A DNA stretch of 50,326 nt, taken from Lentisphaerota bacterium. Its GTDB lineage: Bacteria > Verrucomicrobiota > Kiritimatiellia > UBA8416 > VGWI01. The stretch covers positions 1 through 50,326 of the forward strand of contig VGWI01000009.1 of the NCBI GenBank assembly GCA_016873655.1, given 5' to 3'. Under the pieces are notes generated by a model. That model did no database searches, was not told the DNA's origin, and was given only the letters and a program-made list of their open reading frames with translations. Made by a program: the position numbers and the translations under genes. Below, piece by piece: positions 18,101 through 43,230 of the stretch; the first letter of the stretch is position 1, and each line of letters opens with the position of its first letter.

Positions 18101-21100
18101 ACTCGGAGAAGTACAGCGCCGCGTACGTCGCCCACTTGGCAAGCTGGTCCGTCATTGACCGCCTGCACAGCGTGGCGTCGAGGTCCGGAGTCGTGTTGTA
18201 GAAGTAGTACGTAAGGTAAGCTTCGCCCAGCCCCGGGCCGTCCCACCCTTCGCCCACAAGCGCGTACGGGGCAACCTTGGTCCCGTTGATCCGCGCCTCA
18301 TGCGGGCAGTACCTCACGGGTCTGCCGTCGGTCAGCCACGACGGACACGGTATGATCCGCGCCACCGCATCGCGCGAGGCAAGGGCCTGGACCTGCGCGT
18401 CGGACGCGCTCGCCACCACGTACTTGCCCGCGATGAATCCCGTGCCGACAGCCTGCGCTCCGGCGCCCTGAACGGTCGAGACCGCCACGCCGGACTGGAT
18501 GTCGTCGTGGAACATGACGAGCACGTTTCTGGGCGGCTTCGAACCGGTAAAGCCCAGCTTGCCGGATATCTTGTCCTTCGCCTCCAGAGTGCCCGCCCAC
18601 CTGACACGTGAACCCACGCTCTGGAGCTGCGCAGGCGTCATCACGACCGTCCTGGTGTTGGGCGAGACGGCGTTCAACACCACGCCGCCGGCCTGCTGCA
18701 CGGCCGCAAAGTCTTCCTCCGGCTTGTCCGAATCGGCCTGGATCAGCATGTGGACGGACTGGTCTGAGGGCACTCCCGCCAGCGACTGGCTGATCCCGCG
18801 CACAGGGTTCAGATAGCGCGACTTCAGGCGCAGCCGTTCATTGGCGAAATCGGACGGCACGCCTTCGGGCGCATTGTACCGGTCGAATATCTCGTCGGCA
18901 GAACGCGCTCCGCGCCATATCCGGACTTCGTCAATCCAGCCGCGGAATCCGAGGATCACCGGGCCGGTCGAACGCCAGGCGCCTATCGTCACTTCGTCGT
19001 CGCCGTGCTCCTGCTTGAACCCGAACACGGTCGGCGGCACAAGCGAGGCATCGGTCCTGTACGCGGCAAGCTTGCCGTTCACGTACAGTGACAGGGTGAG
19101 ACTGGCCTGGTCGTACGTGCCGGCAAGATGCGACCACTTGTCAACCGGGATCAGCAACGGCGCCAGTCCGCCTGTAATCTCCGTCAGCCCGGTCCCGTTC
19201 ACACGCACTTCCTGTCCGTCCGATGCGCGGTAGCGTATGTACGGCCTGTTCGTGATTGCCGACTCGGCGACGAGTCCGAGCTCGTAATTGATTCCGTAGT
19301 CGGTCGGGTTCGCGGCGCCTTCCATGCGACGGCAGACGATCACGCCGCCGACCCCGCCCGCTTCCGGCTTAACCCACGCCTCGACCGTCCAAGTCGGCGC
19401 CATGAGCTTGTTCTGTGGCGGAACGATCACGCGCGCATTGCCGTTGAAGTACATCGAGCGCTGGACCCCCGGCTCGAGGGAATCGAGCGGATCGGTCCTG
19501 CCGCTCGGAGGCAGGCTCGTCGCCGGGCGGGTAAGGTTGAACACTGGATCGGTCGAGCCGGTCACTTCCTCCCAGTCCGACAGGCCGTCATCATCGCTGT
19601 CAGGCATGTGCGGCATCGTCCCGAGAGCGAACTCGGTCTTGTTGACGAGCCCGTCGGCATCGAGATCCTCGTCCGGATCGCGCCGGTCGTCGCCATCGGT
19701 GTTCGGGTCGGTCGGGTCGTTTTGAGTGTAGTACTCATAGAGGTTGGAGAGCCCGTCGTTGTCCAGGTCGCCGTCCGGCCCGTGATCCCCGTTCGGATCC
19801 CTCGGATCGAGGCCGAACCGCTCCTCCCAGGAGTCCGGCAGGCCGTCGAAGTCGCTGTCATAGGGATCGGTCCCGAGCGTGCCGTTGTCCCACATCTCCA
19901 CGTCCTCATCCGCCTCCGCCCAGCGCAGCGGCAGCAAGTCAGACAGGTGCGCGCCGGCATCGTCACGGAACGAGGAACTGGACAGACGGCCGAAACTTTC
20001 GGCGCCGTAGCGCGAGGCCGTGAAATAGCCGAAGACATACGGGTTTGCCGTGTTCGGGTACTGCAGGCCGTCGGGGTTCGGAACACGCGAGTCAACGGGC
20101 GGATCCAGCGGATTGTGAACCGCAAGGTTGTCTATCCACGGCACGTACAGGTAGTCAGTGTATATCCGCGACCTGTCGGAGGCGGAAGCCCACCACGGGA
20201 TCGTGTTCACTCCCATCGGCCTCCCGTTCAGCGTCTGGAAGCCGTCGGGGGAAACCGGCCCGTGGTCCGGATCCGGCAGGTCATCGAACGTGTAGGCGAA
20301 GAACAGCAGCGCGCCCTTCGCGCCCTGCCGAACCGTCTTGGCGTTGAACGTCTGCCGGCGGGTCCAGCGGGTTCTCATGGTCGAACGGATTTCCTCGCGC
20401 GTCCTCGGTCCGTCCCAGACGAGTACATTGTCAATCCAGCCCGTGAAGTACTCCCTGAGCACCGGCTGACCGAATACGTTGCAAGCGGGCCATCCCACGT
20501 AGAACGTGCCGCCGTCCACCACCCCGTTAGGGTTGTCGTCGCCGGCGCCAATGACCGCCGGCATCCCGAGCCCGAGAATGTAGCCGATTGCCGGGGCATT
20601 GCTGCTCTGTATGCCGCCGAACCAGCCGTTCCAGGGGATCTCGGACGACGGAGTAACCGACACAATTTCGCCGTCTACGTAGAGCTTGAGCAGACCGACG
20701 AAATGGCCGTCGGCCATGTACGACCCGTCGTAAGTGGTCGCGACGTGGTACCAGCGGTCGTTCAGGAACGAGCCGCCGGGCGATGCCTTGGCCTCGACGA
20801 ATTGGATGTCGGCGGCGCTGCCATGATACCCGGCGAACGGCCGCCCGTCTGGATCAATGCCCACCTTGTAGTTGGCGCGGTAGGCGGAGGGCCACCCCAT
20901 CACGTTGCCCTGCGGCACAATGCCGCCCTTTTCAGTCACGACCTGCGTGCGGCCGCTGCGGGAATTCTGCGGGCGCGCCCAGGCTTCAACCGTGAACGTC
21001 CTCAACTCGCGATAGTCGTCTAGAAAGTGCGAAACCCTCGTCCGGGCCGCGGCATTGCCGTTCAGGTAGAGCGCCCTGCGCTTGATGGGGCTCTGGCTCT

Positions 21101-24100
21101 CCAGCCAGTCAGTCACGCCCGGGCTTTGCGCCTGGTCGGTCAGTTCGGCCACATCGGACAGTCCGTCCGTATCCGTGTCGAACCCTTCGTGGTTCTCGAA
21201 GGAGAACGCATAGGTGGGCGGGGCGTCGAACAAGTAGAGCACCATTAGATCCCAATACCATTCCCACGCGCCGCCGGCGCAAGTGCACATGGGACCATGA
21301 CACCCGAAACGCATCCCGAGCCAGTAGTACAGGTTTACCCATGACTGGTCTGAGCTGGTGTCAGTTACCCAGTGCGGACTGGGGTCGGTATGGTAGTAGG
21401 GCGCGTCATACGGCGGACGCAGAAGATTCGGGGTCAGTTGTACCGACTCGAATATGTTCTGCAATTCGTCCTGGTCACCGTCATGGAAGTCGGTCCCGGA
21501 AATCCACGGATAGACCCGCATGTCCATGGACGCCAGCGCCTGCAAGTGTATCAGCAGACCGGGGAACGGAACAGGCTGAAACAGGACTTTGCTGGCAACA
21601 ACATCCAAGGTGCCCATCAGGGGGTCGAGCCCGTGGAAGGTCTCCCAGTAGTCGTCCATGTTGTCCCAGTCTGTATCCGGATCCCGCGGATCGGTGCCTG
21701 AGAACATCCAGACCACGGCCGGGAAAACCTCTGTGCCGGTGATGTAGTGCCACTCGACCCGGTTGAACGGCGGATCGGCGTAGTAGTTCGGGTCCCAGGT
21801 GTAGGGCTGACGGCCGCCCGGCCCCACATACCAGAGATTGCCGGAAAGCTCGTCATCGAAGAAATCGAACGGCTCATAGCCGTAGAGCCCCCGGCCCGGC
21901 GCCCACGCCATCGTGCCGTCGTTGTAAAGCCACTGCCAGTGATAGACAGCCCCCGCGAAGTACTCCTGATACGCCATCAGGCCGTCGCCATCGTAGTCTG
22001 CGTACATGTCGCCAGTCGTGCCGTCCTGGCCGCCGGCCCAATTCACCACCTCCGCGACGCCCTGGGCATTGATCTGCACATCGCCGGCGCCGGGATACTC
22101 CGCCTCCCAACCGTCGGGCAGGTAGTCCTTGTCGGTATCTGCCGTTGTGGGACACAGCCCGCCGCCGATGAACCATTCGTAGGTTATCTCGCCGGATATT
22201 TCATCGAAAATCGCTATGCCTGCGCCGTTGTTCTGCGTGAAATTGAAGTGGCCGCGCTCGGCGCTGTCGGAAGTCTGATCATAGTCGGTATCCCAGTCAT
22301 AGATGTCAGTCGGGAACCGTTTGTTCTGCCAGCCCGGCACCGCCGTCCTGGCCGCCATGATATTGGTGGAAGTGGCCCAGCTTTGGAACTCCTCGAAGTT
22401 GCTCAAACCATCAAACGGAGCGTCATAGTTCTCGTTTGCGTCAAGCGGATCCTGAGCGTCGAGGGCCATGTAGTATTCCCACCCGTCCCAGATGCCGTCG
22501 TCGTCGGAATCCAGTTTGAACGGATGCGTGGCCCTGTCATCCGGATCATCCTCGGTTATGGCGGCCAGACCTCGATCGCCTATCAGCTCCTCGTAGTTGA
22601 TGTAGGCCGCGGTGTTCGGGCCGGCAGGCCCATACCTGGTAAGGTACCCGTACCCCGTCCCCGGGTGGAACCCGTAGGTCAGGTACACATTGAAGTGCCG
22701 GTTGGATGGCAGCAGGGCGTCCTGGGCAAACCAGTCGCCATCGGGATTCTCGTTCCCGTCACGCGTGCCGTCGTTGTCGGTGTCGGCATCCCACGGATCA
22801 TACGCGAAGGCCATTTCCCATCCGTCCGGCATCTGGTCACGGTCCACATCCCAGTAGAACGGATGCGAACAACGCGGTCTCCCAGGGAACTCCTGCCTGA
22901 GTATCACTCCGTTCGACGTGCCGGCGAACGGAAGCCGCCACGCGGCATACTCCATCTCGTCCGTCAGCCACTTGCCCGATCCGCCGCTGACAGGATCGTA
23001 CATGACGTCGTAGTCAGGCCGACCTGCATCGGGCGGTGTCTTGTGAACCTGGGCGGGATTGTACCGCCGGTCCGCTATCCGCGCTGAACAATCGTAGTTG
23101 CCGTTCTGGAAAAACGATCCGTCGCCCCGGCCGAAGTACACATAGACTGAATCGGTATTCCGGTTGACGACCACAAAGTCGTCGAGCTGGTCGTTATTGA
23201 TCCGTCCGACCGCCACCCACATTGGGCTGTCGCCCACGTCAACCGTCGTGCCTGAGGCGAAAGACGCGTCATCCTTGCTGCCGAGAAGAACCGCCACCGT
23301 GTCGTTCAACTCGTTGACAACCACCAGATCCATCGTGTTGTTCGGCACGGGAAAGATGGCGTCGAACTGGCCCCTGGCCAGATGTCTTGGACCGGCGCCG
23401 ATCGGCAGCCCCTTGGTGAAGCCCGGCGTCAGGAACGACCCGTCGCCGTTTCCGTGCCTGCTGCGCACGTTGTTGTCGCCATATTCAACCCATGCGAGGT
23501 CGTTGTACATGTCGCCGCTGAATTCGCCGATCTCCACGGCCTTCGGCCTGCTGCCGACCCCGAACTCGGACTTGATCGCGAAAGTGCCTGTGCCGTTGTT
23601 CGTGATAACCGTTATCGAGTCGTTGCCCTCGTTGGCGACAACGAGGTCGAGGAGCACGCCGCCCAGCACCACCGTGTTGGTGGGCGCACGCAGGATTCCG
23701 GCCGCGATGTACGCCGGACGCCTGCCGGCGCCGATCGGGATCGTCTGCTGCAGCGTCAGGCCGCCAAGTCCGTCGCCCTGGAAGATGACCACGTTCCCGT
23801 TGGTGACGGACACGGCGACATCCATGGTGCCGTTCCGGTTGAAGTCGCCCACCGCCACGCATGAAGGGCCGTAACCGGCCGTGTAGTGGCTGACGTTGAA
23901 GCCGTTCCCGGCCCGCAAGAGCACCGAGATCGTGTTCGTCCCCATGTTGGCGGTAACGAGATCGCTGACGGCCCCGCCCGTAACAAGGTCCGCGCTTGCG
24001 ATCGCAACCGGCAGTCGGCCGACACCCCACTCGTCCCGCGGGTCCGGCGGGTTAAAGATGCCGTTGGCGCCGTTGCGTCCATAGAGGACCGACACCGAAT

Positions 24101-25712
24101 CGTGGCCGGCATTCGCTATGGCCAGATCCTGCGGACCGCCGTTGAAGTTCGCTATGACAACCGACATCGGCAAAGCGGCATTGACGCTACGGTACGGCAC
24201 AAAATGGTTCAGCGGATCGCCGACCGGGTCCCCGCCATGCACCGACTGCCACTCGTCCCACGAATACTCGTAGCCGTCGTCGAATCCGTCGCCCTGCACG
24301 CTGCCGCCGACTATTTCAGAGTCGATGGCGTCCGCAAAACTCTGGTCGCCGGTATCGGCCCAGTTGACCTGGTACCGGTACACGGGTTTCGTGATGCCGG
24401 CGACAGCTACGGCGGAGGTCCAGGTTCCGGGGACGATCGAATCGGGGCCCACGTACTCCTCGTAGGCCCTGAGACCGACGTCTGTCCGGTAACCCGTGGT
24501 AGTGTTCCAACGGAAATCCTGGTCGGCATTGTTGTCTCTGCCGTTTACACCTATCGCGCTGACAACGGCAGCGGCGTTTCGCTGGTCCCCGACACGGGCG
24601 CTGACGTTGGTGCCGCTGGGCAAGTGGTAGAACTCATACCCGTCATCCATGCCGTCGCCGTCGCTGTCGGCATTGATCGGGCTGGCTTCGAATAACGCGG
24701 CGCCGTTCGTGATCAGGACATGCGATATGATGTACTCCTGGATGTTGGCAAGGAGGTCGTTGTCGGGGTCTCCGAAAGCGCCGTTTACGCCGACCGCGCT
24801 GTTCGGATTGAGACCGAACTTGATCTCCCAGAGGTCGGGCAAACCGTCGCCGTCATTGTCAAGCTGGGAACTGCCGAACACTGCCTTGATCTTGCGGACC
24901 CCGTTCATGGTTACGCTGTTGGTTGTCGTGACCTTCCCGTCATCCCACGCGAGGAAATAGTTCCCGGCGATGGCATACGCAGTGAGGAATACCGACTCCC
25001 CGTTCGTGTACCAATCCTTGCTCGGATTGCGGGTGACGGCCCCGCCCCCCTCGATCTCGACAATCAGCTTGTACTCGTCCGTCCAGTTCCACTTGATCGT
25101 GGACGAATTGGTGATCGACAGGAGGTCGGTCTGATTGCCGCTCCCGGAAGGCGTGATGCTGCCAGTGCCTGTCCAGCCGCTGACAAGCGTCCTGTAGTTC
25201 ACCGGATCAATAGGCATTGGGAACGGCGAGGTGACGGTGAAACGCTGTTGGTCCCCGACATTGTAGTAGTTTATGCCGGACCCGGGCACCGGACTGCCAA
25301 CGGTTCCGGTCGTGTTGGTCGAAGTGACACGCACACCAACCAGGAACGTGGCCTTGATGTAGACATCGTTCGTGCCGCCATAGACGAAGAGAGTGCGCTT
25401 GTTTATCGGCTGACTGATCGTCCCGCCACCGTAGACCAGCTCCCATCGAAGGAACTTCGAGAGCGGCTTCTCCGCGGCCTCAATCCAGATATTGGGCGTA
25501 GTCACAACGAAAGGCAGATTCGAGGCATAGGTGCCGTAGTCCGTCACGTTCGTCGGCGCCACAATGTAACCCAGGCTGCCGTCACCCGGCTCAGGATAGA
25601 TATAGAGATTGTACGCCGCCTTCGCCTGCCCGGCTCCGAGGAGCAGCAGACCAAGAGCGGCAAGCCAGCCCAGCACAGATCCACCCGAGTGCGTCAACTT
25701 GCGCTTTGTCAT
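15138..25712 (-). CDS. Giant secreted multidomain protein with M10 (matrixin-like) protease, two LamG domains and calcium-binding repeats
   Basis: This 3524-aa protein starts at an ATG preceded by GGAAGAG and followed by a signal peptide (to about residue 32). In order: beta-repeat/Ig-like region (about 35-280); DxDxDG-L-P-D-x-W calcium repeats of thrombospondin type 3 style, recurring along the chain from about 285; FG-GAP/VCBS-like repeats (about 510-880); LamG domain (about 1540-1770); second LamG (about 2085-2280); two inhibitor/propeptide-like segments (about 2330-2460); metzincin protease with HEFGHCLGMGH (His2607, Glu2608, His2611, His2617) and a matrixin-like LAYGYFPN before it; further calcium repeats; and a C-terminal beta module ending FYRVIVL. 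It is probably exported or displayed, with calcium needed for folding. Substrate and adhesion target are unknown. Confidence 0.85.
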   Translation of the reverse strand: MTKRKLTHSGGSVLGWLAALGLLLLGAGQAKAAYNLYIYPEPGDGSLGYIVAPTNVTDYGTYASNLPFVVTTPNIWIEAAEKPLSKFLRWELVYGGGTISQPINKRTLFVYGGTNDVYIKATFLVGVRVTSTNTTGTVGSPVPGSGINYYNVGDQQRFTVTSPFPMPIDPVNYRTLVSGWTGTGSITPSGSGNQTDLLSITNSSTIKWNWTDEYKLIVEIEGGGAVTRNPSKDWYTNGESVFLTAYAIAGNYFLAWDDGKVTTTNSVTMNGVRKIKAVFGSSQLDNDGDGLPDLWEIKFGLNPNSAVGVNGAFGDPDNDLLANIQEYIISHVLITNGAALFEASPINADSDGDGMDDGYEFYHLPSGTNVSARVGDQRNAAAVVSAIGVNGRDNNADQDFRWNTTTGYRTDVGLRAYEEYVGPDSIVPGTWTSAVAVAGITKPVYRYQVNWADTGDQSFADAIDSEIVGGSVQGDGFDDGYEYSWDEWQSVHGGDPVGDPLNHFVPYRSVNAALPMSVVIANFNGGPQDLAIANAGHDSVSVLYGRNGANGIFNPPDPRDEWGVGRLPVAIASADLVTGGAVSDLVTANMGTNTISVLLRAGNGFNVSHYTAGYGPSCVAVGDFNRNGTMDVAVSVTNGNVVIFQGDGLGGLTLQQTIPIGAGRRPAYIAAGILRAPTNTVVLGGVLLDLVVANEGNDSITVITNNGTGTFAIKSEFGVGSRPKAVEIGEFSGDMYNDLAWVEYGDNNVRSRHGNGDGSFLTPGFTKGLPIGAGPRHLARGQFDAIFPVPNNTMDLVVVNELNDTVAVLLGSKDDASFASGTTVDVGDSPMWVAVGRINNDQLDDFVVVNRNTDSVYVYFGRGDGSFFQNGNYDCSARIADRRYNPAQVHKTPPDAGRPDYDVMYDPVSGGSGKWLTDEMEYAAWRLPFAGTSNGVILRQEFPGRPRCSHPFYWDVDRDQMPDGWEMAFAYDPWDADTDNDGTRDGNENPDGDWFAQDALLPSNRHFNVYLTYGFHPGTGYGYLTRYGPAGPNTAAYINYEELIGDRGLAAITEDDPDDRATHPFKLDSDDDGIWDGWEYYMALDAQDPLDANENYDAPFDGLSNFEEFQSWATSTNIMAARTAVPGWQNKRFPTDIYDWDTDYDQTSDSAERGHFNFTQNNGAGIAIFDEISGEITYEWFIGGGLCPTTADTDKDYLPDGWEAEYPGAGDVQINAQGVAEVVNWAGGQDGTTGDMYADYDGDGLMAYQEYFAGAVYHWQWLYNDGTMAWAPGRGLYGYEPFDFFDDELSGNLWYVGPGGRQPYTWDPNYYADPPFNRVEWHYITGTEVFPAVVWMFSGTDPRDPDTDWDNMDDYWETFHGLDPLMGTLDVVASKVLFQPVPFPGLLIHLQALASMDMRVYPWISGTDFHDGDQDELQNIFESVQLTPNLLRPPYDAPYYHTDPSPHWVTDTSSDQSWVNLYYWLGMRFGCHGPMCTCAGGAWEWYWDLMVLYLFDAPPTYAFSFENHEGFDTDTDGLSDVAELTDQAQSPGVTDWLESQSPIKRRALYLNGNAAARTRVSHFLDDYRELRTFTVEAWARPQNSRSGRTQVVTEKGGIVPQGNVMGWPSAYRANYKVGIDPDGRPFAGYHGSAADIQFVEAKASPGGSFLNDRWYHVATTYDGSYMADGHFVGLLKLYVDGEIVSVTPSSEIPWNGWFGGIQSSNAPAIGYILGLGMPAVIGAGDDNPNGVVDGGTFYVGWPACNVFGQPVLREYFTGWIDNVLVWDGPRTREEIRSTMRTRWTRRQTFNAKTVRQGAKGALLFFAYTFDDLPDPDHGPVSPDGFQTLNGRPMGVNTIPWWASASDRSRIYTDYLYVPWIDNLAVHNPLDPPVDSRVPNPDGLQYPNTANPYVFGYFTASRYGAESFGRLSSSSFRDDAGAHLSDLLPLRWAEADEDVEMWDNGTLGTDPYDSDFDGLPDSWEERFGLDPRDPNGDHGPDGDLDNDGLSNLYEYYTQNDPTDPNTDGDDRRDPDEDLDADGLVNKTEFALGTMPHMPDSDDDGLSDWEEVTGSTDPVFNLTRPATSLPPSGRTDPLDSLEPGVQRSMYFNGNARVIVPPQNKLMAPTWTVEAWVKPEAGGVGGVIVCRRMEGAANPTDYGINYELGLVAESAITNRPYIRYRASDGQEVRVNGTGLTEITGGLAPLLIPVDKWSHLAGTYDQASLTLSLYVNGKLAAYRTDASLVPPTVFGFKQEHGDDEVTIGAWRSTGPVILGFRGWIDEVRIWRGARSADEIFDRYNAPEGVPSDFANERLRLKSRYLNPVRGISQSLAGVPSDQSVHMLIQADSDKPEEDFAAVQQAGGVVLNAVSPNTRTVVMTPAQLQSVGSRVRWAGTLEAKDKISGKLGFTGSKPPRNVLVMFHDDIQSGVAVSTVQGAGAQAVGTGFIAGKYVVASASDAQVQALASRDAVARIIPCPSWLTDGRPVRYCPHEARINGTKVAPYALVGEGWDGPGLGEAYLTYYFYNTTPDLDATLCRRSMTDQLAKWATYAALYFSESATPGREYSFDIGFGMDPAGAFDGPFGVLAYGYFPNDINPEPIAGDCYYDEDETWTIAGTGIDLRFVSLHEFGHCLGMGHSDDPTAVMFPFYSGSNEDPVLQADDIDGIQALYASAQGTGRAEFRFDDGGLSAEDFSTDADWLTGWASAAIPNGAVFSLDTPPLDRDSDGDQMPDWWEIGNGLNPYDPSGENGPYGDVDRDELNNIYEYYADTDAYPGRSNPRVADTDNNGFVDYDSGVDGAGNGRTAGERYDDGDRIPDGWEIMYRGYAPTTGQRGLDPAYYDAHLDPDEDGWSNYAEYMGYWTDMNLIPPARVRSSNPLSPTNYPMPIIEVRARYFGMRGADIRDVLAGGATVRLNFYGTPAMDGTPWGTLTMDQDVMTVDALTTGHMIEGTNYVFGFLDMNNNGIWDWSPTPGAGEPAGIADPQPVIGWGDINSVEIGLTDFRQGYPRFTWTQIPTASGYYVTLKRGTTTIINNRYIANRARNYLHEGDYLAAGVMGLSGVSPFSTYVLTISYEEDVSGHKYLNPHPQTGMFSLVDLVTLSQPSFITSHGFTYDYARNEIEWSMVAGATSYRIEVARTNNGPAIASRVAPAPYRSVSGSYRAELPVYGGDTVNRSFKLTNGTYRVRVRAEIPGVTPSPWREQSFNLNVREPQAGGKSMITGDVYYFGKTARGYGPGLTNDLRIIVQSFTSAGFSGRPDSQVEFGYVCNTNNPATRKGAYKLMGLHTGVHYVRAFLDLNGNRALDFFEPYGFAVQYQTDWEYQPRSIHLTGSGSVAVNDVRIVIRDRDTDDDGLPDGWEYSALGGTLGYDAGQDPDGDGASNLQEYEDTWIDSDPLKYDTDGDGVSDGDELRLGLLTHVADTDGDGIADGVEVALGLDARNALGDYDGDGIIDAVEILRTKTDPRSGADVLRFIKVMPCDPSAPEVFRLEWDGKPGVAYQVQFSADLRTWLNVPNGRMTGAGVGLSHTERNPGTGGLRFYRVIVL

Positions 25713-25952
25713 ATCTCTTCCAATGCCTCCCGAGGCTTGATCATCCATCCATTCAACGATTGTCACACCACAAATCAACAACAGACATGGCAACATACAT
25801 GCCAGCACAGGCTGGGCTCCAGCAACATTCTGCCCTACAGTCTGTTACACGTACTCGCCCGCCATTTCTCCCGCGTACTGCATCACGGATTGCGCTCATG
25901 CAGCGCACATCCTGACGTCATGAATCCAACGAGTCCAGCTTCAAACGTGCGG

Positions 25953-26363
25953 TCATTCGGCAACGGCGCTCGTATCTTCGTCTGAACTTGTCCTGACCTT
26001 TGCCTGCAACTCTTTGAACTCCTTCTTGAGGGCATCGAACTTGGCCTGCATTTCTGCCAATTCCGGCGCCTTTCTTGCCAGGCGGGCCTCAAATTCCGCG
26101 CCCATGTTGCCGGCCTGCGCCAACGCACTCAGGTCCCTGTCCTGCTTGATCGCCCTGTCACGTATCTGGCTCATCCACTTGTTCAGTTCAATCATCTCGG
26201 CCAGTACCGTTCGCTGCCTGGCAAATGCGTCTGCAACTGAGTCGTCGGCCGGTGCGGAGACCGACTCGGCAGAACCGTCCGCAGCCACTTCCCCTGCCCC
26301 GCGAACGCCCGATGCCCCCGCCAACACAACGCCTGCGCACAAGATTGCCAGCAGCTTTTTCAC
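25953..26363 (-). CDS. Small secreted coiled-coil protein between the two giant genes
   Basis: This 136-aa protein has a signal peptide (about residues 1-23) and an Ala/Ser-rich spacer. A charged helix then runs almost to the end (about 42-125), with heptad-like spacing in LAEMIELNKWMSQIRDRA and ELAEMQAKFDALKKEFKELQAKV. It should form a periplasmic or surface coiled coil, in size and composition like Skp/OmpH-type chaperones or Lpp-like spacers, but without a recognised family. The start is a GTG with GGGAGAAC upstream, only 21 bp after the stop of the 3351-aa protease gene. Translational coupling to that gene is likely. Confidence 0.75.
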   Translation of the reverse strand: MKKLLAILCAGVVLAGASGVRGAGEVAADGSAESVSAPADDSVADAFARQRTVLAEMIELNKWMSQIRDRAIKQDRDLSALAQAGNMGAEFEARLARKAPELAEMQAKFDALKKEFKELQAKVRTSSDEDTSAVAE

Positions 26364-26384: not shown

Positions 26385-29300
26385 CTACGGGTTCAGCCTC
26401 AGAACCCTGAAGAACTGGTTCGGCTCGCTCCTCGGAATCGTGTTTGTCCAGACGAATACCCCGTCGGCATGGACTGTCACCGAAGGCCCGTTCGACCATG
26501 GCACGTTGATCATGTCGCGCGTGAACTGGATCTGATAGATGCCGCCGGATACCGCGTTCCAGTTCAGAATATCCGGAACGCCCCCGACATCGCGGATGGC
26601 AAGCAGCCCCATCCCCGAGTCCACGGCATGGAAGCCCATGGCCGCCTCATCGCCGTCATCCACACCGTTGTTGTTTGTGTCCGCTTCCATCGGATTGGTC
26701 CTGATCCGGTATTCGCCGATGTTCAGGAGCCCGTCTCCGTCCGGGTCGTCGTCCCAGTCGTTCGGATCACTGCTGTTCAAACCGTTCAGGTCTTCCCAGA
26801 CATCGTCCATGCCGTCGCGATCGGAATCAATAATGACCCTCATCAACTGCACGCGCTCGTTGCGGGTATCCGCCACGTAGACAAGATTGTCGTCCGGGGC
26901 GGGAACCGCGCCCTGCGGGACCCTCAACTGCCCGGCCAGACTTCCCATGCTCCCGAAACTGCCCAGCAGCTTGGCCGTGCCGTAAGTGCGCATGTCGAAA
27001 ACCTGTATCCGGTGCGCGCCCGAGTCGGCAACGTATGCCCGGTTCGATACGCCGAACTGGATGTCGGACGGCAGCACGAAGTGGTTTGTTCCGCCGTCAA
27101 ATCCCCACAGCTCCGCCCCGCCGCTCATTGAATAGCACCCGATCCTGTTGCGGAAGGTGTCAACGGCGTACATCAGCCCGCTGCTGTCGACCCCGACGCC
27201 CTGCGGCCGGTCAAGCCCTCCTACCGACGCGTTGAGCACGTAACCCGCCCCGCTCGGCCTGTGGATCTGCACGCGGTTGTTATCCCTGTCGGCAACCATT
27301 ATCCAGCCGTTGTTCTTGAACACGGCAACCGCATACGGCGACCAGAACTGGTTCGCCCCGCTGCCGCGCGAGCCGCCTATCTGGGTCCTGAACGCAACCT
27401 TCGCCGTCGCATAGTCGGTCAGTCTGAATATGCTGATCCTGTGATTGCCGGTATCGGCGACAACGAGTTCCCTGCGCTTGGCGTCAAACGCCAGGCCTTG
27501 CGGGCTAATGAACTGGTTCGACGCGCTGCCGTTTGAACCGAACTTGTTCACCAGCGTCGTGAGCGCCCTGTTCCATACCTGGATCTGGTAGTTTGCCGTG
27601 TCAGCCACAAACACGAGGTTGCTGTAGATCGCCACCCGGCCCGGGCGGGAAAAGATCGAGGGCGGATCGGGATCGCCCACAACGCGCACCGGCGACCATG
27701 AGTTCGGTAGCGGCCCTATCGGGTCTCGCACCTCGTAGCCGAACCGGACCATGTACCCGTCAGGCACGGAGTCGTAGTCCCAGTCCCTCATCTCGCCAAG
27801 AGATCTTCCAGGATAGCCCGGCACACGGTTGACGACCCAGCGCACGAAGTCAGATGCCTCTGCAACCGTGAACGCCGTCGAGTAAAGCGGCGAATCGCCG
27901 TACACAACCGCGGCGGCGACGGAAGAGGCGTCCCATGCGCGAACGTAGACCTTCGTGCCCTTCTCCATGCCTTGCATGTCGAACGTCTGGCGGAACCTGC
28001 CGAAGTCGGGCTCGAGTTCATAACCGTGCCCGAACCGCCCGAACGGCAACCCGTCGGCCAGCGTCACAAGAACCTTGTCATCGCCGCCGGCCGAGCCGTC
28101 GTCGTTCGGCGCGTCAGCCGCGCCGTTGGTGCCAGCGCTGAGCACCTGGTACATGCAGGAGTCGCTTCCGCCATCCCCGCGCAGCGACCGGCCAAGCCAG
28201 TCGACAACGCCGTCGCTCGCCTCCACCGTGACTGCCGGCGGCCAGACGAGGAAACTGACCTGCAGCGGCACGTCCTGCCCGCTTGGGAGCGCGCCGACAA
28301 ACAACACCGTGGCCCTGACGTTCATGACGTCCACGATCTTCGGCGGCGCCGTCATCGTTATCGGCACAAACACGCCGCCTATCGGCGGAACACTGACCGG
28401 GCTGGCGGCGCCGACGCTGAGCCAGCTTATGTCCGTTGTCAGCGCGTCAAGAACCGCGTTGCGGAAGAGGTCGCGGAGCACGCCCGGATTCCGCCACTCG
28501 GCTCCGTCGCGGTTGCCCGTCCACAGCACCACGCTGCCGTTCCCCATCCTGCGCCGCATTATCTTCGAAGCCTCGCCTGTCTTGAGCAGCGCCACGGCCG
28601 CGAGGTTGGTATCGGGCCTGGCATCGTCGTAACGCTGACCGCTCACGACCACCTGATCGCCGGCATTGAGAGCGGCATACGGGCCCTGCAGGAGAGGATC
28701 GGGGACTGAGCCGGTGACGCCCTTCGTCGCAAGAGCCTGCTGGACGCCGGTCCTTGTCGAACCCACCATTGCGCTCAAGTTGACGTTGTCGGGGCTGCCC
28801 AGAAGGTTGGGGCCGGTCAGCAGCAGCACTCCGCCCGCCCTGACGTAGGCGTCAAGGACCAGCACCTCGTCATCAAGTATCTTCCTGCCCGTGCTCTCGG
28901 CGCCGGAAAGATCTGCGACGACAAGGCCGTACTGGGCGAGCAGAGTGCCGTTCAACGAGTGCGCGTGAACGAGGTTGTTTTCCAGCAGATCGCACCGCAC
29001 GCCCATTGCGCGAACGGTCCCTTCTATGCCGGTCAACTGCATCACGTCAGACAGCAGGGCCACCTTCGTCGGTTTGAGTTCCCTGATCCGGCTTACCCAC
29101 GGCGCGCTGCCCTCGTTGGCGAGTTCAACGGTGATGTTCGTGCTCATCCCGACAAGGACGCTGCCGGTCACGGCCGTCGGCAGAACCCGGCCGCTCGGAC
29201 GCATCATGCTGAAATCGAGCCGCACGTCCGACCCCGCCACGGGCGCGGCATTGAAATCGGTCACCGCGAAACTCGCCGCTCTCGCCCTTACCTGGTAAGA

Positions 29301-32300
29301 GCCCGGCTTGAGGCCGAGTATCCTGTAGCCCCCGTTGGCTGATGTGAGAAGGCTGCCCGCGGCAGGGCCGACATATTCCACCGTCGCGTCTGCAACACCG
29401 ATCCCGGAAACGGCGTCGTAAACCCGCCCGGTTATCGATTGCACACCCCCGATGCTTACCGAGAAAACGAGACCTGTCCACGGCCCCTTGAAGCCCTCGC
29501 TTACGTTCATCCGGAATACCACGTTCGTGGGCGCGGCGCCCGAGAATGCAACCCTGAGCGGGGTCGAGGGCTCAACCGTTTCCTGGCTGGCCGCGCCGTC
29601 AGTCCACCGCGGGTGCTGCAGTATCGTAACGCCGGCGGCGGCCGTGGCAACATGACCTGTCACAGGATCGAGATACCCGGTGCCGCGGTTGATGAGCTGG
29701 ATGTACAGGTTGACGGTTTCGCCGGGTTCGGCATAGCCGTCACGGTCGCCGACAACCGAGTCGTCCACCCTCACCCCCTCCACTGCAGGCGAAGGCGCCG
29801 GGACAACGTTCATGATTACGGACACGGAGTTGGTCCCGCCGCATCCGACGTCCGCCGTGATCTGAGCCTTGTGAGTGCCTGGCCGCGCAAGGCCGCGGTA
29901 ATTGAACGTGACCGTGACGTTCTTCTTCTGGCCCACGGCGAGGCTGAACGCCTCCTCGCTCAGTTTCAGCCAGTGAGCCTGCATCATCCTTGCCGCGCGA
30001 TAAGCGCTGAGATGCCCGCCGGTCGTCATGCGCCCTTCCAGCGACGGGTCCGGAATCGCGCTCGAGATGATTGCCGACTTCAGGACGCTCCACGAAGCCT
30101 TCGGCGCCATCGCCATGAGCAGCGCACCGACACCGGTAACGTGCGGCGTGGCCATCGAGGTCCCGTCAAGGAAGGCGTAGGAACCGCCGTAGGACCAGCT
30201 CGGATAGGTGCTCAGTATCTCAACCCCTGGAGCCGCGATGTCCACGCTCTTGTTGCCGTAGCATGAGAACGACGCAAGCAGGTCGTCGCGGTCGGTTGCT
30301 GCAACGGCGATTATGTTCTCGTTCGGGTACGAGGACGGGTAGTGCGGGATGGCATCGTTGTCGGTGCCGCTGTTGCCCGCCGCACACACCATCAGCAGGC
30401 CGTTGGTCTTCGCCTGCTCAAGCAGGTTGTACATCGAAATGCTGAACCCGCCGCCGCCCCAACTGTTGTTGGCGATCTTCACGCCCTTGTCCATCGCGTA
30501 TTCGATCGCGGCCATCGCGGCATCCAGGGAGCCGCCGTAGTCGCCGATGAACTTGAGCCCCATCACCTTCACATTCCAGCAGACGCCGGCGACACCGACG
30601 CCGTTGCTGCCCACCGCCCCGATCGTGCCTGCAACGTGGGTTCCATGGCCGTCCGTGTCCATCGGGTCGCCCGTAACCCCTCCGTATGGCAGCATCGAGA
30701 AATCGGCGCCGTGCACGTCATCAACGTAGCCGTTGCCGTCGTCGTCGCGCCCGTTGGACGCCTTATCCCTTCCCCATGCATCCAGGCCGGACTCGCCGGG
30801 ATTCACCCACATGTTCCCCGCGAGATCATCGTGGTTGTAGTCAACGCCCGTATCGATCACCGCCACAATCACGTTCGAGCAGCCGCGCGAGATCGCCCAC
30901 GCTTCCGGGGCGTCAATATCCGCGCCTGCCGTGCCGGAACTCTGGCCGAAGTTGTCCATACCCCACATGTAACCGTACTCGTACCACGTGTCGTTCGGCT
31001 CGACGCGCGAAGCGGAAAGCACCTCGTCCTTATAGACGCGATAGTTCGGCTCGACATACAGAACGTTGGGGTCTGCCTGCAGCCGCGCGGCAGTCTCGGC
31101 CAGGCTGGAGCCTCTGCCCACGCCCAGCACGGTCACCGGAACCGCCCGGAACCGGCGCAGCTCCCGCGCCCCGGCGGCGGCGGCCGTGCGCGCGACCGAC
31201 GCGGCGCCTGCAATCCCGTCCCTGTACCCGACAAGCAGCGTGCCAAGGTCCGCTTCCTTTTCGGTCAACGCGCTCCAGTTCACTGGCGCGACAACTGGCG
31301 CCGGCGGCGTGACAAACCCCTGCTCAAGCTGCGTGCCAAGCTTCACATCGAGAGTCTTCGCCGAGGCGTTCGACACGACCAGCGTCCTGAACGCCTCGCG
31401 CCCCTCGTCAACAGTCACATTGAAGGAGGCGGGCGATAGACTCAGGTCCGGCGAGATGCCGACGGTCAGGTCGAACGTGTTGCTCCATGCTCCGCCAGCA
31501 GGCGTTTCCTCGAACACGACTTTGAAGGGGATAACGTCGCCTTCAACCGCGGCCGGGGATATTTGTATCTGCGCGTTAACCACGCTGTCAGCCTGGGCGC
31601 CGGGCATGACGAACGCCGGGTAAACGGCAACCGGCTGCGTCACGGATGCCAGCGCGCTGGGCGTGCTGACGGTGCCGCGAAGCCCGTATGCCGTCCCGTA
31701 CCCCGTGTTCTTGACACGCATCGAGAGCCCTGCGGTCTCGTTCGGCTCAAGGTAACCGTCGCCGTCCTGGTCAAGAGTCTTTGCGCTGACAAACTCGATG
31801 AACGGGATGTTTGCCCCCACAACATTCACCTGCAACGCGACCATCAACGGGTCCGCGCCCACCTGGTTGCCGTCAACAGAGACGTACCCGTAGTAAACCC
31901 CGGTCTGCACCGCGCCGGCCTTAGCCGTAACCGTTACCGCCGAGGAGCCAAACGGCGCCGTCGTGATATTGGTCGGCGTCACGCTCACCGTCAGCCTGTC
32001 CACCGGCACCGCGGCCGAAACCGCAGCCTGGAGGTTGATCGTCGGGGGATTCGTCACGGCCGTGTTCCGGACCAGCAGCGTGGCGTTGCTGGCCGCGCCG
32101 CCCGGCTCAACGGTAATGATAAGCACATTCGTGCCGGTAGCAATGACAAGCGCATTCGTGTCGTGGACCGCGTAGGCCCGGCCAAGAGTGAAATCCACGC
32201 CGGCCGCGTCGGGCACGACAGTCACGTTTGTGGACGGGGAATACTCGCCGGCTTTCACGGCCATCACGCTGTACGAGGCGCCCGGGGCAACGCCGACTAT

Positions 32301-35300
32301 CGAGTAGGTCCCGTCGTCAAACGTCAGCGCGGACATCTCCGGCAGCAGCGGATGGCTGGCGCGCACGAGCGCGGAGGTGATCGCGACCCCGTACGTGTCC
32401 CGCACCGTGCCGCTGATTTCCGCGCTGTCCATCGTGATCATGACCGGAATGACCACTGTCCCTCCCACGTACTCGCCGTCCAGCACGATACCGCCGGAGA
32501 ACGCGCCGGGCAGGGCCGATGAACTCATCGTGATGGAAATCTGCAGGTTGGTGGTCGCGCCAGGAATCACCGTCACCCGGTTTGTCCCGCTCGAAACCGC
32601 TATCCCAAGGTCAGGCGAATACGAGTATGTCACCGCCTCGAACACCAGGTTCGTGTCGACAGGCGCCGGCCCGGTGTTGGAAACCGTGAGTCCGAAGTTC
32701 AGAACCTGGCCGCCGACCATGTTTGTCGCGATGGAAACCGGCGCTGCCACGGCAAACGCGCGCTTGAGAACAAAGTCAATGTTGTTCGCCGGCGCAAGGA
32801 CCGGCCGCGTCGCGGAGTCAAGATACTCGCCGGACTTGGACGCCTTCACCATGTAGGTCCGGCCACGCGCCATGCCGTTCATCACGTACCGGCCCGTCAC
32901 GTCAGTGGTCGCGTAAACGGTCGGGAACTGACCGGTCGTCACGGCCGTGACAGTCGCGCCCGCTATCCCCGTCCCGAGGGTGTTGCGCACCATGCCGGTC
33001 GCGCTGTCGTAGCTGCCGATCTGAAGCGTCAGCGACGACAGCCAGGAGTTGTGATCCCTGTCCATCATCGTGTGCAGGACCGGCGCTTCCGCGCCCTTCG
33101 GCGGAATGACGTTGGTGATGGAGACTGCGATCGGCGGGGCGCTTGTTCTGGAATCGCCGATGTTCATGGCGCCGTAGGACAGCACGTTGGTCGGCCCAAC
33201 GAGTTTCGTGTATTGAGACGGCAGAGCGACAATGGCGGAAAGGTTCGACCTGGCGGCCGCATCAACGTTGTAGACGATGAACTTCAGATTCACGGTTTCG
33301 CCTGCTTCCGGATAACCGTCGCCGTCGTTCACCTCCGGGTTGTTCGCAGTGGCATCATCGAACGGGCGGTCGAAGTCGAAAACCCATACCCCGGGCTTGA
33401 TGATCTCCGTCAATTCAACGTCGTCAACGTACCAGCCGGGCCCGATATCGCTCCATCCGCCGCTATAGGGCACGGCCTCGAGCCGGAACCTGATTCTAAT
33501 GACCCTGTCGGCAAATCGCGACAGGTCGTACTCGGCCATTTCCCAGCCGGCGGAGGCGCCGATGTAGTTGGTCTGTCCGGTCGCTTCGTTCGGAAGGTTG
33601 ATCCACCCGGCGCCACCGTCAACCTGCACCACGCAGAAATCGTACGGCACCCCGAATGGATTCCCCAACCCCATGCTGTACCAGTGGCGGAATCTCAGGC
33701 GCGGCAGCGAGCCGACACGTATCGGCTCCGACTCCAGCCAGGACTGCGTTACGTAGTCGTAATTCCCCGCAAGCGCCGTGCCCCAGCAGTTAAGGCCCGA
33801 ATAGGCGGATGGCGGCCCGTATGTCGGCACGCCGTACTCCCACTGCGTGCCGATCCCGCCCGGCTGCCACCGGCGCACGCCGTCTTCCATGTCATCGACT
33901 AACACGCTCCGCGCCCACAACGTGGAAAACTTCGGATAGTCCGCCGGGTCTGCGCTGGCCGTGTTGGCAGGCACGGTTGAAACGTTGCCGGCCGCGTCCT
34001 CCGACCGCACCGACGAGTAGTACACAGTCCTCTGCGTCAGACCGGTCACACGGACCCGGTGAGCCACCGGCCCGGGCCTGCCCCATCCGACTATCGCGTC
34101 CGATCCCTGCCACGGGTCTGTCATCGGAACGCTGGTGGCGCAGCGGGCGTGTTCGCTGGACGGTTCGTCCGTCGTCCACACGATGTAGGCGCTGGTGTCG
34201 CTGACATCCTCGACGTGTATCGCCGAAATGACGGGCGGCACGTCGTCAACCGGCGCATTGGTAACGATCGCGACCGGGGCGCCGGTCAGAAAATCGTTGT
34301 CCATGTACGTGAAGACCAGCATGTCGCCGTGCTCGGGATCGGGCTCAAGCAGCCCGGCGATCGAGAAAGTGTTTGTAAACAGCGGCCCGAAGCCCTGTAT
34401 CGCCAGGACAACCGTGTTGCTGGCCATGAGCGTGCCGGGATTGGCGATGGATACGAAGTCGCTGGAGTAACAACGCACCGCCACGTCAACGGAGGGCGGC
34501 AGCCCGTCGCCGTCGTCCACGCTGACCGACACCGTGGCGTCGGAGCGGTAGGCCAGACGGTCCAGGGACAACTCTGCCCTGGGCGCGTTCACCCCGACGG
34601 CGCGCCAGGCCGCGCTGACGCTCGGCACCCATGTCGGGTCCAGGTCCATCGCCGCCGATACCCAGGCAAGCCTCGCGCCCTGGTGGTCGGTGTCGGAGGT
34701 GAAGTAAACGGTGAGAGCGCGGTATGCGACCTTCTCCGCGTTGGCGATGCCGATGCCCGTAACGTTGTAGTTGATCCCTTCGTTATTGCCCGTGCCGCCT
34801 TCGCAAAGGAGGTAGAAAAAGAAGTTCTGCACGCCGGAGTTCTGGTGGACCCCGCCGTTGTCCATCGGCCCGCTGTACCAGAAGTTGCCGAGATAGCGTG
34901 TCGGCTGCTCGTTCCCCGCGCCGACGGTCGCCGCATTCGCCGGGTTGCGCATGTCGCGCAGGGCGGTGGAAGACAGCCAGCAATCCTCGCCCAACAGCCA
35001 ATCCGACCTGCCCCGTGAAACACCCGGATATGCCCCGCGGCCGTCGGGCTGCCCGTAGAACTCAACGCAGGCGCCGAAAATGTCGGAGAACGACTCGTTC
35101 AACGCGCCGGACTCGTAGGCGTAGGTAAGATTCGCACTGTACTCGGTGACGGCATGAGTGAACTCGTGACCCGCGACATCAAGTACTCCAAGCGCTGTGG
35201 CGGTAACGTTGTCGCCGTCGCCGAAACTGAAGTCGTAGCCGTTCCAGTACGCATTGACGTAGTTGATCCCGAGGTGAACGTTTGCCCGCGCCAGAGCCCC

Positions 35301-36440
35301 CGCGTCGTCAAAACTGTTCCGACCGTGAACGTTCATGAAGTAAGCCTGGACGGCGTCGAACCCGACGCCCAGCGACATCTCAGCCGGATCGCTGCTGCCC
35401 CACGCGTTGTTGTAGCGGAAGGCGTATGTGCCGTTGTCGGCGTATCCCGATGACGCCACGTTGTACACCTGCCAGCGCAAACCGGCGCTGTGCAGGTAAT
35501 AAATGCCTGTGTTCTCGCGCCAGCCGACCACGCTCCTGGACCCGCCACCCTCGCCCGCCAGCACGTTGCCGGTTATGGTCGAAGGACCGCCGTTGCTCGT
35601 CGGCGGGGCTATGTCGTGGATATCGTTGTAACGAAGCAGTACAGCCCCGTTGGAGGCGTCGATCCAGTAGCGCCACCGGCCCGCTCCGCTGCCTGTGTCG
35701 GCGTAGACGATGGTCAACGCATATGCAAGCCGCGGGGCCGCTCCACGCGCGTAGACGACGAGTTCCGGAGCCTTCTCGATCGAACCAGCGGGCTTGCCGA
35801 GCGCCACAAGATCCTGGAACGCCATACGCCCGGCATCCGCCGCTCCTATCCCGGGAACGACGTCAACGTCGATGTCCGGCACGTACTGGCCGTTTACCTC
35901 GTAGGCATTGCCATCCTTGTCGAAATGCACGATCAGGCCGCCGCCGACAACATCCAACCCCTCGTGCATCTGCTTCACGCGCACATGAGTGAAGCCCAGG
36001 GAGTCGGACTGGGCCTTGCCGGCCTTGAATTCCTTCTCCGCATCCTTGACGCGGAACACGGAAGAGAGGTTGTCCAGTACAGCTATGGCCTGCTCGCGAT
36101 TGGTCTTCGACCCGCGTCCGGCCAGCCCCTTGCCCCCGCCAAATACAGCGGGCTGCCTCAGGTCCACGCCGCGAACGGATGCGGGCGTGCCGAGCCTTGA
36201 ATGCCAGTCAACCCGCGCCCCGGCCTTGCCGCCCTTTGCGGCAGCCTTCATCTGGCCGGAGGAAGGCGTTCGCTTCTGCTGCGTTTGTTCGGACTGGAGC
36301 GACGGACCGTCCTTGAGCCTGGTTTCGCTCCGGAGAGCGAACGCACTTTGGGCGGCCATCGCCGCCGCGAGAATGAAAGGGAGATACGGAACGCTGCCGC
36401 GGAAGAAGCCGCGGCCGACGCAGCGGTTGTTTTTGGCCAT
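26385..36440 (-). CDS. Giant secreted protein carrying both an M4 metalloprotease and an S8 subtilisin-like protease
   Basis: The 3351-aa chain begins with a signal peptide (to about residue 35) after a GGAGGG site. In order: FTP/PepSY-type propeptide (about 75-260); M4 thermolysin domain with HEFTH (His425, Glu426, His429), NESFSD (Glu449) and GGVHQNSG (His532), all with thermolysin-like spacing; FnIII (about 733-840); MAM-like sandwich; carboxypeptidase-regulatory-like beta domains; I9-like propeptide (about 1760-1830); S8 domain with DTGVD (Asp1863), GHGTHVAG (His1932) and GTSMATPH (Ser2095); a glutamine-amidotransferase-like fold (about 2450-2640); NHL repeats (about 2946-3190); DxDxDG repeats; and a C-terminal beta module ending FFRVLRLNP. 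Both active sites look complete. It is probably extracellular and may digest protein or process partner proteins. Confidence 0.9.
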   Translation of the reverse strand: MAKNNRCVGRGFFRGSVPYLPFILAAAMAAQSAFALRSETRLKDGPSLQSEQTQQKRTPSSGQMKAAAKGGKAGARVDWHSRLGTPASVRGVDLRQPAVFGGGKGLAGRGSKTNREQAIAVLDNLSSVFRVKDAEKEFKAGKAQSDSLGFTHVRVKQMHEGLDVVGGGLIVHFDKDGNAYEVNGQYVPDIDVDVVPGIGAADAGRMAFQDLVALGKPAGSIEKAPELVVYARGAAPRLAYALTIVYADTGSGAGRWRYWIDASNGAVLLRYNDIHDIAPPTSNGGPSTITGNVLAGEGGGSRSVVGWRENTGIYYLHSAGLRWQVYNVASSGYADNGTYAFRYNNAWGSSDPAEMSLGVGFDAVQAYFMNVHGRNSFDDAGALARANVHLGINYVNAYWNGYDFSFGDGDNVTATALGVLDVAGHEFTHAVTEYSANLTYAYESGALNESFSDIFGACVEFYGQPDGRGAYPGVSRGRSDWLLGEDCWLSSTALRDMRNPANAATVGAGNEQPTRYLGNFWYSGPMDNGGVHQNSGVQNFFFYLLCEGGTGNNEGINYNVTGIGIANAEKVAYRALTVYFTSDTDHQGARLAWVSAAMDLDPTWVPSVSAAWRAVGVNAPRAELSLDRLAYRSDATVSVSVDDGDGLPPSVDVAVRCYSSDFVSIANPGTLMASNTVVLAIQGFGPLFTNTFSIAGLLEPDPEHGDMLVFTYMDNDFLTGAPVAIVTNAPVDDVPPVISAIHVEDVSDTSAYIVWTTDEPSSEHARCATSVPMTDPWQGSDAIVGWGRPGPVAHRVRVTGLTQRTVYYSSVRSEDAAGNVSTVPANTASADPADYPKFSTLWARSVLVDDMEDGVRRWQPGGIGTQWEYGVPTYGPPSAYSGLNCWGTALAGNYDYVTQSWLESEPIRVGSLPRLRFRHWYSMGLGNPFGVPYDFCVVQVDGGAGWINLPNEATGQTNYIGASAGWEMAEYDLSRFADRVIRIRFRLEAVPYSGGWSDIGPGWYVDDVELTEIIKPGVWVFDFDRPFDDATANNPEVNDGDGYPEAGETVNLKFIVYNVDAAARSNLSAIVALPSQYTKLVGPTNVLSYGAMNIGDSRTSAPPIAVSITNVIPPKGAEAPVLHTMMDRDHNSWLSSLTLQIGSYDSATGMVRNTLGTGIAGATVTAVTTGQFPTVYATTDVTGRYVMNGMARGRTYMVKASKSGEYLDSATRPVLAPANNIDFVLKRAFAVAAPVSIATNMVGGQVLNFGLTVSNTGPAPVDTNLVFEAVTYSYSPDLGIAVSSGTNRVTVIPGATTNLQISITMSSSALPGAFSGGIVLDGEYVGGTVVIPVMITMDSAEISGTVRDTYGVAITSALVRASHPLLPEMSALTFDDGTYSIVGVAPGASYSVMAVKAGEYSPSTNVTVVPDAAGVDFTLGRAYAVHDTNALVIATGTNVLIITVEPGGAASNATLLVRNTAVTNPPTINLQAAVSAAVPVDRLTVSVTPTNITTAPFGSSAVTVTAKAGAVQTGVYYGYVSVDGNQVGADPLMVALQVNVVGANIPFIEFVSAKTLDQDGDGYLEPNETAGLSMRVKNTGYGTAYGLRGTVSTPSALASVTQPVAVYPAFVMPGAQADSVVNAQIQISPAAVEGDVIPFKVVFEETPAGGAWSNTFDLTVGISPDLSLSPASFNVTVDEGREAFRTLVVSNASAKTLDVKLGTQLEQGFVTPPAPVVAPVNWSALTEKEADLGTLLVGYRDGIAGAASVARTAAAAGARELRRFRAVPVTVLGVGRGSSLAETAARLQADPNVLYVEPNYRVYKDEVLSASRVEPNDTWYEYGYMWGMDNFGQSSGTAGADIDAPEAWAISRGCSNVIVAVIDTGVDYNHDDLAGNMWVNPGESGLDAWGRDKASNGRDDDGNGYVDDVHGADFSMLPYGGVTGDPMDTDGHGTHVAGTIGAVGSNGVGVAGVCWNVKVMGLKFIGDYGGSLDAAMAAIEYAMDKGVKIANNSWGGGGFSISMYNLLEQAKTNGLLMVCAAGNSGTDNDAIPHYPSSYPNENIIAVAATDRDDLLASFSCYGNKSVDIAAPGVEILSTYPSWSYGGSYAFLDGTSMATPHVTGVGALLMAMAPKASWSVLKSAIISSAIPDPSLEGRMTTGGHLSAYRAARMMQAHWLKLSEEAFSLAVGQKKNVTVTFNYRGLARPGTHKAQITADVGCGGTNSVSVIMNVVPAPSPAVEGVRVDDSVVGDRDGYAEPGETVNLYIQLINRGTGYLDPVTGHVATAAAGVTILQHPRWTDGAASQETVEPSTPLRVAFSGAAPTNVVFRMNVSEGFKGPWTGLVFSVSIGGVQSITGRVYDAVSGIGVADATVEYVGPAAGSLLTSANGGYRILGLKPGSYQVRARAASFAVTDFNAAPVAGSDVRLDFSMMRPSGRVLPTAVTGSVLVGMSTNITVELANEGSAPWVSRIRELKPTKVALLSDVMQLTGIEGTVRAMGVRCDLLENNLVHAHSLNGTLLAQYGLVVADLSGAESTGRKILDDEVLVLDAYVRAGGVLLLTGPNLLGSPDNVNLSAMVGSTRTGVQQALATKGVTGSVPDPLLQGPYAALNAGDQVVVSGQRYDDARPDTNLAAVALLKTGEASKIMRRRMGNGSVVLWTGNRDGAEWRNPGVLRDLFRNAVLDALTTDISWLSVGAASPVSVPPIGGVFVPITMTAPPKIVDVMNVRATVLFVGALPSGQDVPLQVSFLVWPPAVTVEASDGVVDWLGRSLRGDGGSDSCMYQVLSAGTNGAADAPNDDGSAGGDDKVLVTLADGLPFGRFGHGYELEPDFGRFRQTFDMQGMEKGTKVYVRAWDASSVAAAVVYGDSPLYSTAFTVAEASDFVRWVVNRVPGYPGRSLGEMRDWDYDSVPDGYMVRFGYEVRDPIGPLPNSWSPVRVVGDPDPPSIFSRPGRVAIYSNLVFVADTANYQIQVWNRALTTLVNKFGSNGSASNQFISPQGLAFDAKRRELVVADTGNHRISIFRLTDYATAKVAFRTQIGGSRGSGANQFWSPYAVAVFKNNGWIMVADRDNNRVQIHRPSGAGYVLNASVGGLDRPQGVGVDSSGLMYAVDTFRNRIGCYSMSGGAELWGFDGGTNHFVLPSDIQFGVSNRAYVADSGAHRIQVFDMRTYGTAKLLGSFGSMGSLAGQLRVPQGAVPAPDDNLVYVADTRNERVQLMRVIIDSDRDGMDDVWEDLNGLNSSDPNDWDDDPDGDGLLNIGEYRIRTNPMEADTNNNGVDDGDEAAMGFHAVDSGMGLLAIRDVGGVPDILNWNAVSGGIYQIQFTRDMINVPWSNGPSVTVHADGVFVWTNTIPRSEPNQFFRVLRLNP

Positions 36441-36529
36441 TCGACACACCCTCCAACAGTCAATCCCGGCCATGCAAGACAAGGCAGGGAACAGAATCTC
36501 TTTCAACGGCTACGGAAAGAAGAGTCCGG

Positions 36530-37520: not shown

Positions 37521-39910
<2,390 letters not shown>

Positions 39911-39914
<4 letters not shown>

Positions 39915-43034: not shown

Positions 43035-43230
43035 TGGGAAAATCACCATCCGGTTAGTACCGCCCCACGCCGGGCGGCGACTCGCGAGGATATAGAGAAA
43101 CATTCCCCGCTTGTATAGCCCAAACTGCCGACAGCCCAAACTGTCGCAGGAGCACAAATGCGGTTGGCACCGGCGGCGAGGTCCGGTAGATTCCATTCCA
43201 CGTTCCGGCGGACCCGGGGAGGACTGAGCA

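Follow-up and report, generated by a model that had tools for sequence, protein, structure and literature searches.

Precursors of M4 peptidases are usually ~500-750 aa long, and secreted proteases of one organism are known in general to activate each other; to our knowledge, fusions of two mechanistically unrelated endopeptidases have hardly been described. On the subtilase (S8) side, a reference point is deseasin MCP-01, a collagen-degrading marine enzyme. It has one protease with C-terminal proprotein-convertase (P) and PKD domains (PMC11294657), and C-terminal domains of both M4 and S8 exoproteases are trimmed in stages (PMC3327674, PMC11294657). Secreted multidomain proteins of very great length, in which TSP3 and catalytic domains occur, are reported from PVC lineages (PMC12057145). 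In the open-access papers searched we found no description of an M4-S8 protein; within these papers, the protease families and the gigantism of the locus presented here are known, and it is their combination and the gene block around it that are undescribed.

The window analysed here, a 50,326-nt stretch of DNA, is an entire contig of a 3.08-Mb genome in 243 contigs, which is the sole member of its family among the genomes compared and probably belongs to Verrucomicrobiota, class Kiritimatiellia. The original prediction had recognized, within 26385-36440, a 3351-aa secreted chain with two complete, unrelated proteases. This interval is correct, but gene A (product P0001) lies on the minus strand; translation of the plus strand of 26385-36440 showed stops throughout. 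The frame is open upstream to a first TTG at 36506 (ORF 26385-36506(-), 3373 aa), and residue numbers from Pfam and alignments count from this TTG, so that 22 has to be subtracted to obtain the ATG-based numbering. Read by eye, the N-terminus has a basic n-region, then a hydrophobic core and then AFA/L, which clearly looks like a textbook Sec signal. Above the Pfam cut-off we detected FTP (3e-14), Peptidase_M4 (2e-23) and Peptidase_M4_C (1e-40), followed by Fervidolysin_NPro-like (6e-8), Peptidase_S8 (2.5e-56), three CarboxypepD_reg and NHL repeats. Together with the aligned catalytic residues, these matches bear out both the two complete proteases and the propeptide-like segment proposed for each of them (FTP for M4, Fervidolysin_NPro-like for S8). 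Of the domains said to join or follow them, CarboxypepD_reg and NHL held, and MAM and fn3 scored below the cut-off, although relatives keep the MAM-like stretch. The two protease domains lie 1238 residues apart. This genome carries a single M4 gene and, beyond the S8 of gene A, at least three more matches to S8.

Table 1. Features of gene A and its block in the window; residues count from the TTG unless ATG = 1 is given.
Feature	Position	Strand	Basis or remark
Gene A (M4 + S8 giant secreted protein, P0001)	26385..36440	-	ATG at 36440; 3351 aa
Predicted Sec signal peptide (MAKNNRCVGRGFFRGSVPYLPFILAAAMAAQSAFA)	36336..36440	-	read by eye from translation, without a predictor
FTP prodomain of M4 protease	35883..36032	-	PF07504, residues 159-208
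M4 (thermolysin) domain	34590..35519	-	PF01447 + PF02868; alignment to 5A3Y; motif positions
M4 HEFTH	35154-35168	-	residues 425-429 (ATG = 1)
M4 zinc ligand Glu	35094-35096	-	Glu449 (ATG = 1), in NESFSD
M4 catalytic His	34845-34847	-	His532 (ATG = 1), in NGGVHQNSG
FnIII/MAM-like stretch, common to S8-free relatives	33018..33911	-	30% identity to G051 gene A residues 1045-1333
Inserted S8 cassette	28275..33017	-	residues ~1164-2744; missing from three S8-free relatives
S8 prodomain (fervidolysin N-prodomain-like)	31044..31244	-	PF22148, residues 1755-1821
Predicted S8 autocleavage region	30999..31007	-	residues 1834-1836; 3VV3 first residue aligned at about 1836
S8 (subtilisin) domain	30057..30878	-	PF00082, residues 1877-2150; alignments A2, A4 and to 3VV3
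S8 Asp	30852-30854	-	Asp1863 (ATG = 1)
S8 His	30645-30647	-	His1932 (ATG = 1)
S8 Ser	30156-30158	-	Ser2095 (ATG = 1)
Carboxypeptidase-regulatory-like domain (best of three)	29205..29438	-	PF13620, residues 2357-2434
NHL repeats (beta-propeller)	27120..27614	-	PF01436 and ScyF NHL model
Conserved C-terminal third	26388..28232	-	34-36% identity to gene A of G051, G014, G073
Small coiled-coil protein (136 aa, secreted), encoded between A and B	25953..26363	-	
Gene B, 3556-aa secreted protein (FG-GAP, two LamG, TSP3 repeats, matrixin)	15138..25808	-	
Matrixin (M10) domain of gene B	17760..18218	-	PF00413 E=2e-31; zinc motif HEFGHCLGMGH

The N-terminal zymogen has these sequence features of peptidase family M4: HExxH, the third zinc ligand Glu, the catalytic His, the FTP prodomain and a secretion signal. 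Peptidase_M4 covers residues 330-455 and Peptidase_M4_C residues 458-639 (TTG numbering), with scores of 84 bits (PF01447) and 139 bits (PF02868) that are above the curated threshold. The nearest solved structure is thermolysin (5A3Y), which aligned at E=4e-59 across the pro-region and the catalytic domain, and in this alignment the HEFTH motif, the Glu and the His were found exactly where they had been predicted. The M4 of gene A is 69% identical to that of two genomes of the same class, G104 and G093. For the S8 domain, PF00082 scored 192 bits with the Asp-His-Ser triad in order; the triad is invariant in the alignments of fused S8s, and its three residues again occupy the predicted positions when aligned to deseasin 3VV3. 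The S8 prodomain matched PF22148 with 33 bits against a cut-off of 21, and a low-confidence model of it shows the order beta-alpha-beta-beta-alpha-beta (pLDDT 46 for pro-S8, and 30 for the cassette region 2437-2745). In all the fused S8s compared, the prodomain precedes S8, ends in an EPNY-like motif and is followed by a PND-type start of the mature domain.

Because the S8 prodomain is internal, normal autocleavage would cut the giant chain in two, so that a polyprotein is expected and not a bifunctional enzyme that persists for long. We estimate a probability of roughly 60% that gene A, as read from its sequence, specifies an exported precursor from which two endopeptidases of different class arise by self-maturation. 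The M4 zymogen would strip its own N-terminal prodomain, and S8, judging from the domain order, homology and the 3VV3 alignment, would cut behind its own internal prodomain near residue 1835. With this second cut the chain would fall into two products, M4-FnIII/MAM-regulatory-domain and S8-regulatory-domain-NHL-TSP3, and such a two-protease polyprotein would supply both complementary extracellular proteases in equal amounts. Either product would keep its own binding or anchoring domains, and external protein would be degraded jointly with gene B; by analogy with MCP-01, an insoluble protein is a plausible substrate. The split products could stay bound via the prodomain, and the split might be delayed until after the attack on the substrate begins. 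The catalytic residues are kept in all M4+S8 relatives as far as contigs and frames reach.

The original prediction suggested that one of the proteases removes the prodomain of its partner, which would make the fusion a built-in activation cascade. Both zymogens are indeed supplied 1:1 in one chain, but M4 and S8 each have a prodomain of a self-processing family, so that cross-activation is not required, and close single-protease relatives of both halves occur without the partner; we regard the cascade as unlikely. Somewhat less likely still is a chain that stays intact at the surface, with the Ig-like, MAM, regulatory-like and NHL domains as a rigid spacer that places both active sites side by side on one substrate. 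The long conserved C-terminal third with its NHL and TSP3-like repeats would fit such an arrangement, as would the adjoining gene for a small secreted partner, which is lipoprotein-like in two genomes, whereas the internal S8 prodomain predicts a split and the linker differs among the fusions (FnIII/MAM/regulatory-like in the window, BACON/HYDIN Ig elsewhere).

How the precursor with two proteases was built can be followed in three relatives (G051, G014 and G073), in which gene A lacks S8 and encodes 1914-1971 aa. P0001 aligned with them in three blocks in the same order, with identities of 47-49% for the N-terminal zymogen, 30-33% for the MAM-like part and 34-36% for the C-terminal third, which comprises a leading region, the NHL propeller, TSP3-like repeats and a terminal beta domain. 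Residues 866-1163 and 2759-3373 of P0001 align to residues 1045-1333 and 1345-1971 of the G051 protein, and no counterpart of residues 1164-2758 was found in the alignment to gene A of G051, G014 or G073; the S8-free relatives have 12-45 residues in place of these ~1,600. On these alignments, gene A derives from an older M4-MAM-NHL-TSP3 giant that took up an S8 cassette of ~1,580 residues at a single site. The cassette, in which Ig-like and regulatory-like domains flank the S8 zymogen, is composed of, in order, beta-sandwich and carboxypeptidase-regulatory-like domains, the S8 prodomain, S8, a regulatory-like domain and an alpha/beta region. This last region (residues 2437-2745; window 28272-29198, minus strand) reads like a GATase-like domain and had no homologue among the loci compared. 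Since all four syntenic relatives are S8-free, we infer that the cassette was gained in the window gene and not lost in the relatives. Its GC content (0.643, against 0.626-0.637 in the rest of gene A) and its codon usage are like those of the remaining gene, so that it is not recent foreign DNA; neither measure showed a foreign composition. A four-sequence model of the C-terminal domain matched only genes A and B in the window genome. The M4 of gene A is closer to the M4s of the fused relatives and of a second M4 gene of G051 than to those of the S8-free genes, and a constraint grouping it with the S8-free gene A M4s was not rejected (p 0.25); gene A may be of mosaic origin.

A mistaken joining of two unrelated genes in a metagenome bin could also have produced such a chain. 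The window is one MAG contig, and none of the relatives compared joins M4 and the S8 cassette to an NHL tail in exactly this way. However, a single frame runs through the joins, the window contains no N, GC content and codon usage stay uniform throughout gene A, the sequences on either side of the cassette align to the same relatives in the same order, and M4+S8 chains are present in independent assemblies. The other S8 domains of the genome (L181, L182) are just 45-50% identical to that of gene A and therefore not its source. We consider a chimera very improbable, and an assembly join or frameshift between M4 and S8 is ruled out by the frame, the composition, the ordered flanks and the recurrence.

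M4+S8 chains were found in about 5 of the 27 M4-bearing genomes among 288 of the class Kiritimatiellia (the window genome G000, G104, G063, G093 and G079) and in 2 of the 15 M4-bearing genomes among 151 of Fibrobacterota (G545, 1725 aa; G637, 2100 aa), frequencies that rest on long frames only and are not full counts. No fusion was present in 40 long M4 frames of Bacteroidota (297 genomes, 68 with M4), in 20 of Planctomycetota (392 genomes, 39 with M4) or at the other Verrucomicrobiota M4 loci examined. These counts broadly agree with the earlier view that such fusions are rare, but not with uniqueness. Peptide patterns revealed no close relative of the whole protein among the genome contigs compared. 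M4 and S8 share one uninterrupted frame in G000, G104 (3000 aa), G063, G545 and G637, and both sets of catalytic motifs are intact in G104, G063, G079, G545 and G637. In G063 the frame (2703 aa) runs off the end of its contig and the N-terminal part lies in an adjacent frame, and the G093 contig ends just past the S8 prodomain, with the M4 motifs kept. G079 has two M4+S8 genes with broken frames, one of which has M4 and S8 in a common 1500-aa frame. Both of these (L172, 2117-9370; L173, 3549-10744) show several frame changes in a genome of few contigs, probably as a result of long-read errors and not of decay. The M4+S8 fusion is uncommon yet recurrent, and is no artefact.

In the approximately unbiased (AU) tests, one clade of all fused S8s was rejected (p-AU 2.6e-15), as was one clade of all fused M4s (p-AU 1.9e-4), and one ancient M4-S8 fusion behind all the cases is thereby ruled out. 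In the trees the fused S8s are split among several groups, and those of Fibrobacterota cluster with other Fibrobacterota S8s (99/95). Because the joint clades are rejected for both S8 and M4, the phylogenies indicate at least two origins of the pairing, that in Fibrobacterota being independent. A single origin within Kiritimatiellia was not rejected (S8 p 0.054, M4 p 0.23); in the best tree the window S8 stands apart from those of G104, G063 and G079, and a third origin, for the window gene, is suggested.

Gene A belongs to a conserved block (15138-36440) with relatives at L036/L186, L033/L184, L035/L185, L050/L179, L187 and L039. The order gene A, small secreted coiled-coil gene, gene B is common to the window, G051 (with two small genes between A and B), G014, G073 and G032, while G098 and G259 have the order small gene, B, A. 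The small-gene products have a common place, size, signal and coiled coil; no sequence similarity was detectable among those compared, and no Pfam or NCBIfam family matched the 136-aa protein of the window. The protease of gene B also varies: G032 has an S8 there, the window and G051 have M10, and gene B of G014 and G073 has neither of the two. Two S8 domains occur together in single frames of 2,300-3,800 aa in ~14 of 193 genomes of the class, by a hand count from the match list (G028:C5, G026:C19, G059:C51, G050:C146, G104:C2, G140:C95, G099:C259 and others). Judging from such frames and the variable gene B proteases, this group regularly makes giant secreted proteins with several proteases, the M4-S8 chain being one of them. 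Divergent from the block, 37467-39914 (+) encodes an 815-aa sigma-54-dependent regulator, which possibly acts on it. Further along, a 539-aa protein (41832-43451, minus strand) has two nucleoside-diphosphate-kinase-like halves; the N-terminal half looks degenerate, and the C-terminal half, interrupted by ~75 additional residues, retains the histidine of NAAH.

More generally, it is conceivable, at a little under even odds, that the block scaffolds of Kiritimatiellia gain and lose zymogen cassettes (M4, S8, M10), and that an internal subtilisin acts as a self-cutting hinge that turns a giant into a two-protease polyprotein, assembled more than once. The fusion in gene A can be placed on trees: its S8 insertion site is defined, relatives without S8 allow a comparison, and the pairing arose separately in a second phylum. 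From this fusion we predict that an internal prodomain lets a subtilase convert a giant protein into a polyprotein of two enzymes. The fusion also draws attention to a conserved, so far undescribed block of giant secreted-protein genes in a group that is mostly uncultured.

Compared with known systems, the M4 of gene A is like thermolysin (PDB 5A3Y) in its FTP prodomain and HExxH + Glu + His site; unlike thermolysin-family zymogens, it shares its 3351-aa chain with a second protease. Deseasin MCP-01 (PDB 3VV3) is the best structural relative of the S8 (E=2e-84, with the triad and the mature-start region aligned), but in gene A the S8 is internal, behind an M4 zymogen, and is followed by regulatory-like, NHL and TSP3-like parts. 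The other M4+S8 giants of Kiritimatiellia and Fibrobacterota share the order of gene A, with the M4 zymogen N-terminal and the S8 zymogen C-terminal; they differ in their BACON/HYDIN Ig-like linkers and the absence of an NHL tail, and the Fibrobacterota fusions also in an S8 of another subgroup. The giant genes of PVC bacteria resemble gene A as very long secreted multidomain proteins that combine TSP3 with catalytic domains, but those described (PMC12057145) are carbohydrate-binding or toxin-like; gene A carries paired proteases, of which the papers searched gave no example.
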